The position numbers were made by a program, and so were the translations under genes. Source: Bordetella parapertussis (GTDB lineage: Bacteria > Pseudomonadota > Gammaproteobacteria > Burkholderiales > Burkholderiaceae_B). From it: a stretch of DNA of 11,459 bases. A model generated the notes under the pieces. That model saw nothing but the letters and a program-made list of their open reading frames with translations, made no database searches and had not been told where the DNA came from. Where the stretch lies: contig CAMBLP010000064.1 in assembly GCA_945868195.1 (NCBI GenBank), forward strand, positions 1 through 11,459, read 5' to 3'. Positions 3,989 to 11,459 of this stretch are shown in pieces. Each line of letters opens with the position of its first letter. Position 1 is the first letter of the stretch.

Positions 3989-4064
3989 GCCGATGTAGCT
4001 CAGTTGGTAGAGCAGCTCATTCGTAATGAGAAGGTCGACAGTTCGATTCCGTTCATCGGCACCA
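3989..4064 (+). tRNA. tRNA-Thr (anticodon CGT)
   Basis: This 76-nt tRNA has an encoded CCA. The acceptor arms GCCGATG and CATCGGC pair perfectly and the discriminator is A. The D-arm is GCTC/GAGC and the anticodon loop is TTCGTAA, giving anticodon CGT, which reads ACG; the layout matches E. coli thrW. The T-stem is unusual: GACAG (4037-4041) faces CCGTT (4049-4053), which leaves an A-C mismatch (4040/4050, positions 52 and 62) plus a terminal G-T wobble. The other arms are normal, so the gene is probably functional. Confidence 0.96.
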
Positions 4065-4125: not shown

Positions 4126-5652
4126 TCAATCAATCGTTGGCGCATAACCAAACGGCTGACTCGGGTGAGCGGCCGTCTCTACCCACACACTTTTGACCTG
4201 GGTGTATTCCTCGAGAGCTTCGACACCGCTTGAGCGGCCATGACCGCTGGCGTCATAGCCCCCGAACGGCGAGGCGACATTGATCACCTTGTACATGTTG
4301 ATCCAAAAAGTACCCGCCCGGACTTGACCCGCCACACGAAACGCGCGACCAAGATCCCGCGTCCAGACCGCGCCAGCCAAGCCAAAATCACTATCGTTGG
4401 CGATCCTGATTGCATCTTCCTCCGAGTCAAATGGAATCGCCACCACGACCGGTCCAAAAATTTCAGTTCTCGCGACAGCCATCTCGTTGGTGACATTTTT
4501 TAAAACGGTCGGCCGAACATAAAAACCTGTCTGTGGAGACTCTACCTGCGAATAACTTCCAACGATCTCTGCGCCCTCACGCACACCCGTATCAATCATG
4601 TTCCTGATGTGGCGATACTGTGTTGCGTTCTGAATCGGTCCCACTTCAGTCTCAGCCGAACTGGGTTCGCCGACACGCAGTTTGCTTGCGCCCTCGGAGA
4701 CCATGTTCACGAACTTCTCGTAAATACTGCGCTGGACCAAGAGCCTTGAGCCCGCCACGCAGCTTTGTCCCGCACTACCAAAGATCGCGGCTTGCGCGCC
4801 GATGCAGGCTCGCTCTAAATCCGCATCTTCAAATACGATGTTGGCCGACTTGCCTCCGAGCTCCAACACACAGGGAATGCCGCGAACAGCCGCAGCGGCA
4901 GCAATTTTTCCGCCTGTCGCAGGAGAACCGACGAATACGACTTTCTTGACAGCCCGTTGACTCAAGGCAGCTTGACCAATCGTATGCCCATAGCCCACTA
5001 AAATATTGATCACGCCTTTTGGAATACCTGCTTGCTCAGCTAATTGGGCGACAGCCAGCGAACTTAAGGGCGTGAGCTCTGAGGGTTTGAGCAAGACAGC
5101 ATTACCCATACAAATTGCAGGCGCAATTTGCCAGCCACAAGTAAACATTGGTGCATTCCAGGGCGTAATCTGCAGGACAACACCAAATGGCTCTCTTCGG
5201 GTGTAATTCAAATGCCCACTTGGCACTGGGATGACATTGCCATAGAGCTTGTCCGTCCAGCCGCCGTAGTACTCGAACATTTCAGCGACGCGCAATGCCT
5301 CGCCACGGCAGTCCCGTATCGGCTTGCCCGCAGAGAGCGACTCTAGCTGAGCCAGTGACTCGATATTCGCTCTCACTAAACGCCCGACCTCTTGCATCAA
5401 CCGACCGCGCTCAGCGTGACTGAGTGCACCCCACACACGTTGCGCTGCACTTGCAGTCGTGGAGGCATGTTGCGCGACACGTTCAGTCGCATCTCGATAT
5501 GTTAAAAAAATATCGCCCGTCGCTGGATTGACTAGACTGATTTCCGCACCCTCGCCGATGATCATCTCACCGGCCACGTACGAGCCAATATGACCTTGAG
5601 GAAAAAAAACCTGATAGGCCTTCATCAATTGTTCTGTTTGACTGACGCTCAT
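4126..5652 (-). CDS. NAD(P)-dependent aldehyde dehydrogenase
   Basis: This 508-residue member of the ALDH superfamily oxidises an aldehyde to the carboxylic acid with NAD(P)+, in the cytoplasm. PWNAP has the oxyanion-hole Asn166, and VLLKPSE contains coenzyme-binding Lys189. FVGSPATGG is the nucleotide-binding turn. LELGGK holds the general base Glu264, and GQSC the catalytic Cys298. Having both Glu264 and Cys298 points to a hydrolytic enzyme rather than a CoA-acylating methylmalonate-semialdehyde dehydrogenase, which lacks that Glu. The C-terminal region (PFGGYDASGHGR) resembles the DhaS/betaine-aldehyde-type branch, but the substrate cannot be read from the sequence. The ATG overlaps the stop of the upstream dehydrogenase (ATGA), with AAGGAGG 8 nt before it, inside that gene (complement 5661-5667), so translation is probably coupled. 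It ends 19 nt from the tRNA-Thr terminator, facing it. Confidence 0.93.
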   Translation of the reverse strand: MSVSQTEQLMKAYQVFFPQGHIGSYVAGEMIIGEGAEISLVNPATGDIFLTYRDATERVAQHASTTASAAQRVWGALSHAERGRLMQEVGRLVRANIESLAQLESLSAGKPIRDCRGEALRVAEMFEYYGGWTDKLYGNVIPVPSGHLNYTRREPFGVVLQITPWNAPMFTCGWQIAPAICMGNAVLLKPSELTPLSSLAVAQLAEQAGIPKGVINILVGYGHTIGQAALSQRAVKKVVFVGSPATGGKIAAAAAVRGIPCVLELGGKSANIVFEDADLERACIGAQAAIFGSAGQSCVAGSRLLVQRSIYEKFVNMVSEGASKLRVGEPSSAETEVGPIQNATQYRHIRNMIDTGVREGAEIVGSYSQVESPQTGFYVRPTVLKNVTNEMAVARTEIFGPVVVAIPFDSEEDAIRIANDSDFGLAGAVWTRDLGRAFRVAGQVRAGTFWINMYKVINVASPFGGYDASGHGRSSGVEALEEYTQVKSVWVETAAHPSQPFGYAPTID

Positions 5653-6530
5653 GCTTGCTGCCTCCTTGCACTCAATTCAACAATCCTGTTGAAATCCTCG
5701 TCATCACCAATACATTGCGCACTCACACCCCACAACTCTGCGACCTTAGCTGCAAGCGGTCGATCTAGAGACAACGCAGAGATCAGCTCCTCCGAGAGTC
5801 GCACGTCTTTACGCATCAACTTCATCGTGAAACCTGAGTCGAACTTTCCGTTCATGATCCAAGTCGGATAACTATGCTCTGTAATAAAACTTCGGCCTGA
5901 GCCCGCGTTGATTCCTTGAAGCAACTGTTCGGTGGGTACCCCTGCTTGTTCCGCCATCCGAGTCACCTCTCCGGCGATCAACAAATGCGCCGCAGCGAAA
6001 AGATTATTCGCAATTTTTGCGACATGACCTGCACCACTATCACCGACATGGACCCGTTTTGCCGTCATGGCCGCTAGAATGGGCTCAGCACGCGACAAAT
6101 TAGCTGCAGAGCCACCGATGACCATCGCCATCGTGCCCGTGATCGCCCCTTTGGGGCCGCCACTCACAGGCGCATCCAGCATCTGCATGCCCACAGCATT
6201 TAGTTTTTTAGCCAAACGACGCGTGGTATCAGGGTGCGAGGTCGACGTGTCAACGACCAATAATCCTTGCTTGGCATTCGCAATAATCCCCTTGGGACCT
6301 GCCACCACTTCTTCGACAATCGCTGCGGTCGGGAGTGACAAAATCACAATGTCGCACTCAGCGACAACTTCGCCAATACTTTCTCTGACAGCAATACCCT
6401 CTTGAGCGAGCGCTTCACGAATGGCAGGTGAAACATCGGTACCGACTACCTTGAAGCCTTTGCGAAGGAGAGTCAAGGCCATCCCTCGTCCCATGTTGCC
6501 CAAGCCGATCACACCAACAGTATTGAACAT
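5649..6530 (-). CDS. NAD(P)-dependent beta-hydroxyacid dehydrogenase (3-hydroxyisobutyrate dehydrogenase family)
   Basis: Enzymes of this family interconvert a 3-hydroxyacid and the matching semialdehyde; members include 3-hydroxyisobutyrate dehydrogenase and tartronate semialdehyde reductase. The 293 residues are the usual length. The N-terminal Rossmann motif is GLGNMGRG (residues 9-16), with Asp32 in a VGTDVSP turn that favours NAD over NADP. The substrate motif DAPVSGGPKGA starts at residue 119. The catalytic Lys172 and Asn176 lie in GHVAKIANN. GGAGA-like purines (GGAGA, complement 6538-6542) are 7 nt from the start. It is first in a two-gene leftward operon with the aldehyde dehydrogenase and is divergent from fhs across 109 bases. 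A TTGACG lies upstream, but no -10 box sits at a proper distance. Substrate unknown. Confidence 0.92.
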   Translation of the reverse strand: MFNTVGVIGLGNMGRGMALTLLRKGFKVVGTDVSPAIREALAQEGIAVRESIGEVVAECDIVILSLPTAAIVEEVVAGPKGIIANAKQGLLVVDTSTSHPDTTRRLAKKLNAVGMQMLDAPVSGGPKGAITGTMAMVIGGSAANLSRAEPILAAMTAKRVHVGDSGAGHVAKIANNLFAAAHLLIAGEVTRMAEQAGVPTEQLLQGINAGSGRSFITEHSYPTWIMNGKFDSGFTMKLMRKDVRLSEELISALSLDRPLAAKVAELWGVSAQCIGDDEDFNRIVELSARRQQA

Positions 6531-6639
6531 GTATGTATCTCCAGACTAAATACTAAAAACCAAGCAAAACCTTTCGGCGAACACCGTCAAAAGCTTAATT
6601 GGTCTAGGATATAGGTTTTAAATAATACCAAGAGACCCC

Positions 6640-8313
6640 ATGCTTTCAGATCTTGCCATTGCCCAAGCGGCGGACAAAACGCCCATCCTAAAACTCGCTC
6701 CCGCCAAAGCAGGCATCCCCGAGGATGCTCTTGAGCCCTATGGACGCTTTAAAGCAAAGCTCTCGCTTGACTATATTCGTTCACTTGAGGGCCGCCCGAA
6801 TGGGAAACTCATCCTCGTCACGGCGATTTCACCCACCCCCGCCGGAGAGGGAAAAACAACCACAACGGTCGGACTTGGCGATGCTCTCAATCACATCGGC
6901 AAGCGCGCCATGATTTGTCTGCGCGAGCCCTCGCTCGGTCCAGTATTCGGCATGAAGGGTGGTGCTGCGGGTGGCGGGATGGCGCAAGTCGTCCCGATGG
7001 AAGACATCAACCTGCACTTTACGGGCGACTTTAACGCCATCGCCTTGGCGAACAATCTATTAGCGGCACTGATCGACAACCATATCCATCACGGCAATAA
7101 GCTTCAGTTTGACGTGCGACGCATCACTTGGCGACGCGTCGTCGACCTCAATGACCGCGCGCTACGTCAAATCGTCGTCGGCCTTGGCGGGACCGCCAAT
7201 GGCTTTCCTCGCGAAGACCACTTCGACATCGTCGTGGCCTCCGAAGTGATGGCAATATTTTGTCTGGTCAATAGCCTCAAAGATCTCAAAGAGCGCCTCG
7301 GTGAAATCGTCGTCGGACATTCCCTCTCTGGCCAACCCATCCGCGCACGTGACTTGCAAGCACAGGGCGCCATGGCCGCCTTGCTCAAAGAAGCCTTGGC
7401 GCCCAATGTGGTCCAGACGCTAGAGAACAACCTCGCGCTCGTACACGGAGGTCCCTTTGCAAACATCGCCCACGGCTGCAACTCCGTGCTCGCAACCTCC
7501 ACAGCGCTCAAACTCGCAGATTATGTCGTCACCGAAGCAGGTTTTGGTGCAGATCTCGGCGCTGAAAAATTTCTGGATATTAAGTGCCGAAAGGCAGGCC
7601 TGGCACCCTCGGCCGTCGTACTCGTCGCAACAGTGCGTGCCTTGAAATATCATGGGGGCGTAGAGGTCAAAGACGTCGGCACTGAAAATCTCGACGCTTT
7701 ACAAAAGGGTCTCGTCAATCTCGAGCGTCATATCCATAATATTCAGCACAATTTTGGTCTGCCTTGCGTAGTCGCGATCAACCATCGAACCGAAGACACT
7801 CCAGCTGAAATCGAACTTTTGAAATCAACGGCCGCTGCGCTCGGCGTCGAGGTTGTCTTGGCCCAACACTGGGCCAAAGGCGGTCCAGGCGCGGCCGAAC
7901 TCGCACACGCCGTCGTCAAGCTGTGCGAGCAACCCAATCATTTTAAATTTCTATACGAAGACGATGCCTCACTTTTAGAAAAAGTGAGCACCATCGCCGT
8001 CAAAACCTATGGTGCCGAAGGCATCTCTTGCGACGCTAAAGTCAGAGGACAGTTTGCACGCCTCGAAGCCGATGGCTATGGTCATCTCCCTGTTTGTATC
8101 GCTAAAACACAATACTCATTTTCGTCAGATGCCAAACTACGTGGCGCACCAAACGGACATACCCTTGCGATTCGTGAAGTACGTCTCGCGGCTGGCGCAG
8201 GCTTTGTCGTGGTGGTGTGCGGTGACATCATGACGATGCCCGGCCTACCTATCGTGCCCGCGGCCAATGGCATTGACATCAACGAGGCTGGAGACATCAC
8301 AGGTCTCTCTTAG
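6640..8313 (+). CDS. fhs: Formate-tetrahydrofolate ligase
   Basis: This enzyme joins formate to tetrahydrofolate with ATP, giving 10-formyl-THF for purine and formyl-Met synthesis, or works in reverse. It is cytoplasmic. The 557 residues match the family length. The phosphate-binding loop [13 protein letters not shown] (from residue 66, Lys72) is intact. So are the family stretches [44 protein letters not shown] and [14 protein letters not shown]. The C-terminus ends in the expected GDITGLS. The start gives the normal [11 protein letters not shown]-terminus, with a weak AAGAGA 4 nt upstream. A possible promoter, TTGGTC (6599-6604) with AATAAT (6621-6626), is weak and would leave almost no leader. 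The gene is GC-richer by eye than corA or the TAXI gene. It appears to be a single-gene unit. Confidence 0.97.
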
Positions 8314-8317
8314 ACCT
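8301..8317 (+). terminator. Weak hairpin over the fhs stop codon
   Basis: AGGTCT (8301-8306) and AGACCT (8312-8317) are perfect 6-bp arms around a 5-nt loop and include the fhs TAG (8311-8313). A T-rich stretch (TCCTTTTCTT) comes only about 10 nt later, so this is a poor intrinsic terminator at best. It is the only hairpin noticed between fhs and the lipocalin gene. Confidence 0.25.
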
Positions 8318-8421
8318 TATCAAAGTCCTTTTCTTAAACACCATCAATCCTAGGCGCTTTATAGTGGCCTTTGGCGTCATAAAATATTGCGGGATCTCTC
8401 TGACTCGGCTACCCTTGATCT

Positions 8422-9015
8422 ATGATAAAGATGAATACGCTGAGTACGTCTCAACTCCTATGCTCGCGACTCGCCAGCACCATATGGGTCGCCTTTGCCG
8501 CAGCAACCCTCATCCTCGCCATGTCTGGCTGTTCAACAGCACCTCCAGAGGGACTGATTTCCGTCACTCCTTTTGACGCCAATCGCTACCTCGGTAAATG
8601 GTATGAAATCGCCCGTCTGGATCACTCATTTGAGCGCGGTCTCACAGATGTCAGCGCCACGTACTCCCTCAAACCAGACGGCAGCCTCGAGGTCATTAAC
8701 CGCGGCTTTATCACCAAAAAGGACGAATGGAAGTCCGCCAAGGGTCGTGCCTTATTTACAGGCAGCCAAAATCAAGGCTCACTCAAAGTCTCTTTCTTTG
8801 GTCCCTTTTACGGTGGCTACCATGTCGTCGCCCTCGACCAAACTGGTTATCAATGGGCGCTTGTCGCCGGTCCTGATCGTGACTACTTATGGCTACTGGC
8901 TCGCACTAAAGCACTCACACCCGATGTGCGTGATGCGCTCGTCGCACAGGCAAATAAAATGGGCTTTGCAACAGACAAACTTATCTGGGTATCGCACACC
9001 AGAGCGGACAATTAA
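8422..9015 (+). CDS. blc: Outer-membrane lipocalin lipoprotein (Blc family)
   Basis: This is a bacterial lipocalin, a one-domain beta-barrel thought to bind and carry lipids such as lysophospholipids at the outer membrane. The first 36 residues are a lipoprotein signal with a hydrophobic core (VAFAAATLILA) and the lipobox MSGC, giving lipidated Cys37. Ser38 follows, not Asp, so sorting to the outer membrane is expected. The mature part starts the barrel with GKWYEIARLD (Gly58-Trp60, the lipocalin GxW motif), then TDVSATYSL, and ends with the conserved DYLWLLAR strand. About 160 mature residues agree with Blc. The start is uncertain: ATG 8422 and ATG 8431 are in the same frame and neither has a clear ribosome binding site. 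The TAXI protein gene begins 20 nt downstream, so the two probably share a transcript. Confidence 0.93.
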   Translation: MIKMNTLSTSQLLCSRLASTIWVAFAAATLILAMSGCSTAPPEGLISVTPFDANRYLGKWYEIARLDHSFERGLTDVSATYSLKPDGSLEVINRGFITKKDEWKSAKGRALFTGSQNQGSLKVSFFGPFYGGYHVVALDQTGYQWALVAGPDRDYLWLLARTKALTPDVRDALVAQANKMGFATDKLIWVSHTRADN

Positions 9016-9035
9016 ATACCGAGGTACAGACTGGC

Positions 9036-10415
9036 ATGGATAGTTTTAAACATGAGGTGCGCGATCATGTAATCGCCATTTACGAAATAGCGCGCGATGA
9101 GATGCGAAATGTGTTTCAGTTTATCCGCGAAGCTTGGTTACTCATCCTTTTATTACTTTCACTGATCGCCATTGCCATTTGGTTGGCTAAACCCGCACCG
9201 CCAAAGCACGTCCTAATAGGCACGGGCGCTGTCGGAGACTCCTATGAAGATCTTGCCAAACTCTATGTTGACTACTTTAAGAAAAACGGTGTCACACTTG
9301 AGCTCGAAAAGACAAAAGGCGCCGAAGAAAATATTCAGCGCCTCAAAGATCGACATAATCGTATGCAAGCAGCATTTATTCAAGGCGGCGTGGTAACTAG
9401 TCGCGAACAAGCGCAAGGCCTTCAATCACTTGGGAGCCTTGAATACGAACCATTTTGGATTTTTTATAGAAAGGACTTGTATCCTTCCGGCTCGACACCA
9501 AGATTTGAATTACTTGAACACCCCATCTCGATCGGAGAACCAGGGAGCGGCACCTACTTTCATGCACTGCGCCTCCTGCAGTTGACACACCGAGATTTAC
9601 CTAAAAATTTCAAAACCCTTTCGAATCACGATGCCGTAGAAGCTTTTAAAAATGGCACGATCGATACTGTGGTCATGGTCGATGGTTCAGACTCAGAAAA
9701 TGTCCAAGCCATGATTAACGATCCAAAAGCACGTGTTGCCGGATTTGCCAAAGCAGATGCCTTTGCACGCTTATTGCACTACTACCATGTCTTAAGTATT
9801 CCAGAGGGCTCCTTAGACTTAGCACTTAATGAGCCACCTCAAACGATTCAGACCATTGCCACTACCACCAATCTCGTGATTGATCCTAATATGCACCCCG
9901 CGATTCAGCTATTGTTTTTACAGGCAGCTGAAAAAATAAACGGCGGGCGATCATTTTTTTCAAGCTACGGGGAATTTCCCGAATACAAAGATTCGATCAT
10001 TGAGGAAAGTGATGTCGCCAAAAGTTTTTATGCGAATGGCACACCACGCTTATTGGAATACATGCCATTTTGGCTAGCCGAGTTTCTCAACCGCATGGTG
10101 ATTTTGTTATTACCTGCGGCTGCGTTCGCATATCCAATTATAAAGACCATGCCTACCTATCGGCTGCGTCGAGTACGTTCACGTCTCAACGAAGTGTATG
10201 GTTCACTTAAACTCTTTGAGCAAGAGCTCGAAAACAATTTCGATTCAACCCAACAAGAAGCATATTTACAAAAAATCGATGAACTTGATAAAAAGGCACA
10301 AAACTTGCGTGTCCCTCGCAGTCTGATAAGCGAGTATTACACCTTGCGCACGACAATCGATTTTATGCGTAATTTGATCGATCGGTCTGTTAGAAACGCG
10401 AGGCCTGAAGCCTAA
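9036..10415 (+). CDS. Membrane-anchored TAXI-family TRAP solute-binding protein
   Basis: TAXI proteins are the solute-binding part of some TRAP transporters and are normally secreted periplasmic proteins of about 320 residues. This one has 459. A membrane segment at residues 33-51 ([17 protein letters not shown]), with no cleavage site visible, leads into the binding domain (about 57-340). That domain starts with [13 protein letters not shown] and contains [11 protein letters not shown] (from residue 167), the family ligand-binding loop. A second membrane segment follows at about 350-369. The last 90 residues are charged and helical, with a likely coiled coil, and should be cytoplasmic. No TRAP membrane subunit gene is in the window. 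GAGG lies 11 nt before the start, and the lipocalin gene is 20 nt upstream. The stop overlaps that of ispH. It could be an anchored receptor or sensor; the ligand is unknown. It is AT-richer by eye than fhs. Confidence 0.88.
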
Positions 10416-11359
10416 CCGACCTTACGCGACAATCCCTTGGGCAAAGGAAAAGCAACATTTTCGTGCAGTCCATCCATGGTCCGCACGGAAATCGCTCCAA
10501 GTTCTTTTAAGCGTTGAATGACCTGTTGAACCAGCAACTCGGGCGCAGAGGCACCGGCGGTGATACCGATGCGTTGCCGCCCCTCAAGCCAAGCCGGATC
10601 GATCGACTCAGGACCATCTATAAGATAAGAAGCGATCCCCATGCGCTCGGCGACTTCGCGCAGACGATTGGAGTTTGAGCTGTTGGCACTACCCACCACC
10701 AACACCAAATCCGACGCAGGAGCGAGGACTTTGACCGCATCTTGACGGTTTTGAGTCGCATAGCAAATATCGCTCTTTTTAGGTTCCTGAATATGTGGAA
10801 ACCGCGTTCGCAGCGCCTGCGCAACCTCTGCTGCATCATCGACCGAAAGCGTGGTCTGCGTCACAAACGCGAGCTTATCAGGATGCGCAACCTGAAGCGC
10901 CAAGACGTCTTTGGTCGTCTCCACCAAATACATCCCATTTTTCGACTGTCCCAGCGTACCCTCGACCTCTGGATGTCCCTTATGGCCAATCATCACGATT
11001 TCACAACCGGCCGCACGCATGCGTTCGACCTCGACATGCACCTTGGTGACCAAGGGACAGGTCGCGTCAAACACTTGTAATCCGCGCTGCCCTGCTTCGA
11101 CGCGAACAGCTTTGGAGACGCCATGCGCGGAAAACACAACAATGCCACCCTCAGGCGCTTGATCGAGCTCATCGATAAATACCGCGCCTTTGCGTTTCAG
11201 GTCCTCGACCACAAAACGGTTGTGCACAATTTCGTGACGCACATAAATAGGTGCACCATGTAACTCAAGCGCACGCTCGACGATATCGATAGCACGATCC
11301 ACACCCGCAAAGAAGCCTCGCGGTTGTGCCAGCAGGATTTCAGCGCCCGAGTTTGACAT
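10412..11359 (-). CDS. ispH: 4-hydroxy-3-methylbut-2-enyl diphosphate reductase, with a missing cluster cysteine
   Basis: IspH (LytB) is the last enzyme of the MEP isoprenoid pathway. It reduces HMBPP to IPP and DMAPP using a [4Fe-4S] cluster held by three cysteines. Using the ATG at 11359 (315 residues; SD GGGAG 7 nt upstream), the protein aligns with E. coli IspH end to end. Cys101 (DATCP) and Cys199 (DICYAT) match E. coli Cys96 and Cys197. The first ligand is lost: [11 protein letters not shown] has Phe17 (codon TTT, complement 11309-11311) where the family has Cys. His46, His79, His129, Glu131, Thr169, the SSNSN stretch and TAGASAPE are kept. A GTG at 11362 is an alternative start. The gene overlaps fkpB by TGATG and should be coupled to it. 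Either this copy is impaired, or the base is a sequence error, or the cluster is held differently. Confidence 0.96.
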
Positions 11360-11459
11360 CACAGCACTCCCAGTAAATCGATATCGACCCGCAGCGTCAG
11401 GCCCGCCATTGGGTGGTTAAAGTCAAACAAAGCCGAGTCGTCGGCGATCTCTTTTAAGA
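11359..11459 (-). CDS. fkpB: FKBP-type peptidyl-prolyl isomerase, SlpA/FkpB type (3' end only)
   Basis: The last 32 codons and a TGA stop are present; the gene runs off the right edge. The visible residues include [11 protein letters not shown] followed by [10 protein letters not shown], which matches the C-terminal FNHPLAG...F-D-I strand of SlpA/FkpB proline isomerases. These are cytoplasmic folding helpers. The gene precedes ispH, as it does in many proteobacteria including E. coli, and its stop overlaps the ispH start (TGATG), with the ispH ribosome binding site inside its final codons. Confidence 0.88.

Follow-up and report, generated by a model that had tools for sequence, protein, structure and literature searches.

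Of the complete genes in the window (the whole stretch of DNA analysed here, 11,459 nucleotides), the last is an ispH gene that encodes phenylalanine at the position of the first cysteine ligand of the [4Fe-4S] cluster, a position held by cysteine in every relative examined. Most probably it reflects either a mistake in this single sequence or a mutation bound to be lost, rather than a novel type of enzyme. The reading that we favour, and consider probable, is that the base behind the Phe codon arose as an error of assembly or consensus building, or was a minority or damaged base that entered the consensus, in an ordinary ispH from a Zwartia-like member of the Burkholderiales. It is preferred because the change is a single, isolated departure in a ligand codon, no relative shares it and the gene is otherwise normally constrained; the departure was itself chosen by a scan aimed at departures of this type. 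If so, the enzyme of the living cell would be a normal three-cysteine [4Fe-4S] IspH, and one base of the record would not represent the living population.

The product of the gene gives a full-length match to the NCBIfam model NF002188 (520.3 bits, cut-off 420) and matches TIGR00216 (323.4 bits, cut-off 187.85), and solved IspH chains (4h4c, 3ke8 and others) match its residues 6–311 with an E value of 4e-116. Chain 4h4c, to which the alignments described below refer, is presumably that of E. coli IspH. There are two options for the start of the gene, a GTG at 11362 and the next codon, an ATG at 11359, the latter being the position at which close homologs begin, and no internal stop is found in the frame. 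Membership of the protein in the IspH/LytB family is beyond doubt; the doubt attaches to the base of the record. The coordinates of the gene, of its three ligand codons and of other features of the window are collected in Table 1.

Table 1. Positions of the features discussed in the text; residue numbers 102 and 200 are counted from the GTG start.
Feature	Position	Strand	Remarks
tRNA-Asn (gtt)	105-180	minus	
tRNA-Thr (cgt)	3989-4064	plus	
Aldehyde dehydrogenase and hydroxyisobutyrate-dehydrogenase-like genes, 4-base overlap	4126-6530		near tRNA-Thr
TAXI-family TRAP solute-binding-like protein	9036-10415		between lipocalin gene and ispH; 44.3 bits, below cut-off 84.35
ispH (4-hydroxy-3-methylbut-2-enyl diphosphate reductase)	10412-11362	minus	NF002188 match; PDB IspH chain matches; no internal stop
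TGC codon, residue 200, third ligand Cys (E. coli Cys197), kept	10763-10765	minus	4h4c alignment
TGT codon, residue 102, second ligand Cys (E. coli Cys96), kept	11057-11059	minus	4h4c alignment
TTT (Phe) codon, position of first [4Fe-4S] ligand Cys (E. coli Cys12)	11309-11311	minus	alignment to 4h4c and homologs

The motif of the window protein reads [11 protein letters not shown], and its second Phe, encoded by TTT, aligns with the Cys of PRGFCAGVDRA in chain 4h4c in a stretch that contains no gaps. This Phe is residue 18 counted from the GTG and residue 17 counted from the ATG. The cluster ligands of E. coli IspH are Cys12, Cys96 and Cys197 (excerpt of PMC11218510). Of the three cysteines that hold the [4Fe-4S] cluster in IspH/LytB proteins, the record therefore keeps the second and the third and has Phe in place of the first, so that the original prediction of a Cys-to-Phe replacement at the position of E. 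coli Cys12 is correct as to both codon and alignment.

The rest of the protein is intact. The His, Glu, Thr and SSNS motifs, which comprise the substrate and proton-relay residues and the catalytic residues of IspH (in part after an excerpt of PMC9745026), are unchanged in the alignment to 4h4c, bearing out the accompanying claim that the other two ligand cysteines, the catalytic residues and the frame are preserved. Across the 173 homologs listed, 105 of the 316 IspH columns are conserved at 99% or more, and the window differs at only one of these 105, the ligand position; it likewise differs at one of the 113 columns that are invariant in 102 distinct relatives, again the ligand position. 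As the only departure in this set of 105 columns, the Phe is, by this measure of conservation, outside ordinary divergence. No co-varying change was found at the other 104 columns, and ispH shows, as judged from its conserved positions, no other sign of decay or of compensation.

Cys occupies the ligand position in all 173 homologs listed, 120 of them from a whole-protein search and 53 more from a search with residues 8–50; each search scored the 8000 candidates sharing most words with the query and retained the best 120 representatives of 90% clusters. The closest cluster representative among the listed homologs, P0001 at 97% identity, also has Cys; its cluster comprises 35 member sequences and 6 contigs. 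Single Phe members could be hidden, because the listed homologs represent 90% clusters. The search with residues 8–50 was designed to rank Phe variants higher, as better matches to the query, and none was present among its best 120. In the genome scan, 80 loci were kept of 108 found, 79 of them with PRGFCAGV and one with PRGYCAGV, that is, all with Cys. A degenerate DNA pattern for PRG[F/Y]FAGV, which covers Phe only and in the PRG[F/Y] context, had no match in any of 398 phylum genomes. This census is able to see the motif, since the matching Cys pattern was found in 370 of the same 398 genomes; the 28 that matched neither pattern are uninformative. The Phe pattern was equally missing from 268 genomes of the family, 254 of which match the IspH family model, the Cys pattern control having been applied to the phylum set only, and the viral contigs scanned for the Phe motif gave 0 matches in a scan that had no matching Cys control. 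Thus, to the question raised with the original prediction of whether close relatives have Phe in common, the 173 listed homologs and the 80 loci kept answer no. In the literature searched, which included excerpts of PMC8837944, PMC12447371, PMC11218510 and PMC9745026, no report was found of a naturally occurring IspH that lacks one of its ligand cysteines. That the gene might be a close copy of a plasmid-borne ispH was considered and rejected: the plasmid collection contains 85 matching records, of which the best listed is 65.3% identical.

The IspH proteins of Zwartia and related Burkholderiales (P0001-P0056) are 88–97% identical to that of the window, and at the DNA level the segment from fhs to ispH (6581-11457) aligns with locus L005 at 81% identity. 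All of these relatives (L001-L005; P0001-P0056) have Cys at the ligand position, whereas the window has Phe. With the solved IspH/LytB chains the window protein shares two of the three ligand cysteines, the substrate and proton-relay motifs and an open frame, but these chains carry the first ligand Cys where the record has Phe. The titles of two metagenome-assembled genomes may not fit their content: L075, titled Desulfobulbus, holds a 70% identical ispH, and L006, titled Bordetella parapertussis, an 85% identical one.

Regarding the origin of the codon, TTT was said to lie one transversion from the Cys codon TGT. This stands insofar as TGT is the codon used at the ligand position by 30 of the 102 distinct relatives (TGC in the other 72), but the five nearest loci all use TGC. 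Cys codon usage in the eight genes of the window is TGC 20 and TGT 17. A one-base change is a plausible, not a proven, origin of TTT. Starting from the TGC of the five nearest loci, two base changes would be needed, which counts against the error reading; two changes would suit a single error less well, unless the lineage had TGT. If a single base changed, the class is G to T / C to A. Errors of the C to A type are tied to guanine oxidation, both in living cells and as raised by acoustic shearing (excerpt of PMC5994075). They are not the commonest kind of error, because transitions outnumber transversions among the errors that remain after read-pair merging (same excerpt), and the class alone proves nothing on the origin of the ispH change. 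The distance between base 11310 and the end of the window is 149 bases; if the contig stops at the same point, this region may have less read support than others.

A further point against the error reading is that the remainder of the window is clean and shows no sign of a poor record. The proposal of a generally poor record was unsupported, as eight genes have no internal stops and two of them show no departure at any invariant column: 0 of 540 for ygiQ (20 rows), a radical-SAM family protein whose CxxxCxxC motif is intact, and 0 of 282 for fhs (26 rows). Elsewhere, departures were counted at 4 of 341 invariant columns in the aldehyde dehydrogenase gene, 6 of 194 in the hydroxyisobutyrate-dehydrogenase-like gene, including the radical L257R, 2 of 102 in the lipocalin gene and 17 of 287, of mixed kinds and with four relatives only, in the TAXI-type gene; corA, for which each run gave a single relative, was left out of the assessment. 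These counts come from a second conservation run, which dropped duplicate rows and rows below 68% identity or below 35% length. The first run had limits of 55% identity and 60% length, which left fhs with 5 rows and the TAXI-type gene with 8. Two of its departures, fhs R2L and P248H of the TAXI-type protein, resembled the class of the ispH change. With the 26 rows for fhs and the 4 left for the TAXI-type gene by the higher identity limit, R2L was gone and P248H stayed. By hand count, the G:C to T:A class fits 8 of the 30 departures of the second run (6 in the TAXI-type gene, 1 in the aldehyde dehydrogenase gene and 1 in ispH), a count made with no comparison to expectation and in which some of the eight carry an additional third-base difference. 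An excess of G:C to T:A changes in the window as a signature of damage was not established.

The main rival to a base error is a real allele that is dead or dying, arisen by spontaneous mutation in some of the cells or tolerated because the cell has another, intact ispH or takes up isoprenoids, which we regard as unlikely. In its favour, Phe is a radical substitute for a ligand that the enzyme cannot lose and stay active, a point that speaks for a base error as well: a review states that activity is lost completely when any single one of the three cysteines is mutated, and the laboratory Cys mutants of E. coli IspH, which like the window protein have lost one of the three cluster ligands but were made deliberately, are reported there as inactive (excerpt of PMC9745026). 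The lack of further decay in ispH is what a very recent change would be expected to leave, and genome G123, in which both ispH matches are full-length, makes a second copy possible in principle. Against this, ispH is single-copy in all eight related genomes compared, and two matches occur in just five (G080, G123, G155, G231 and G261) of the 254 family genomes that have one. The HMG-CoA reductase model TIGR00533, by which the mevalonate pathway was sought in the related genomes, matched 0 of the 8, compared with 5 of 14 control genomes; ispG is present in all eight. Across these genomes a second ispH copy appears possible but rare and an alternative isoprenoid route would be without support, and the second ispH that had been thought to be implied by the Phe was not supported. 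Moreover, if the only copy were inactive, one would not anticipate finding it in a consensus sequence. We infer that an erroneous base is most likely, in preference to a genuine allele.

A working variant, in which two cysteines and a further ligand (e.g. water, Cys120 or some other side chain) bind the cluster or in which the protein serves a different role, is very improbable, despite the intact state of the other active-site motifs. Phe does not ligate iron. Cys120 has no cysteine counterpart in 4h4c, where the residue is Glu, but it is not a private compensation, as the five Cys-bearing homologs compared also have Cys at that site. Neither a co-varying change at the 104 other columns conserved at 99% or more nor a Phe relative (173 listed homologs, 80 loci, 398 phylum and 268 family genomes) was found, and a changed function or a two-cysteine cluster, both suggested earlier, gained no support from these comparisons. 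The narrower claim of a natural IspH, functional or with a new task, that has a two-cysteine cluster and Phe at the first ligand position would be more improbable still. Were the change real and fixed, the Phe would break a rule kept in every relative examined, and it would mean that the reductase can keep its site-differentiated cluster on two cysteines. There is hardly any chance that the frame or the start was misread and that another cysteine fills the position, an outcome that had been named as fatal to the original prediction: the alignment to 4h4c is ungapped here and the nearest in-frame Cys is residue 102. With a wrong or minority base as the preferred explanation, the present value of the case is one of caution, in that a single base of a ligand codon in one record needs read support before biological claims are made.

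Some further observations concern the family and the neighbouring genes. Four genomes of about 0.8 Mb from the same family (G141-G144) have no ispH match listed, and four others of 0.7–0.8 Mb (G140 and G145-G147) do match; the former may be reduced symbionts that have lost the last step of the MEP pathway, or incomplete records. At L005, the closest syntenic locus, the aligned blocks that flank the dehydrogenase pair are only ~660 bases apart, so that the pair is absent there, and the best match to the aldehyde dehydrogenase in the genome of that locus (G005) is only 40% identical. The alignment with L001 spans positions 4145-8312 of the window. Finally, towards its end the TAXI-type protein has, as judged by eye, a hydrophobic segment as well as a charged tail, and its relatives, among them those of L002, L003, L004 and L005, are 71–83% identical to it.
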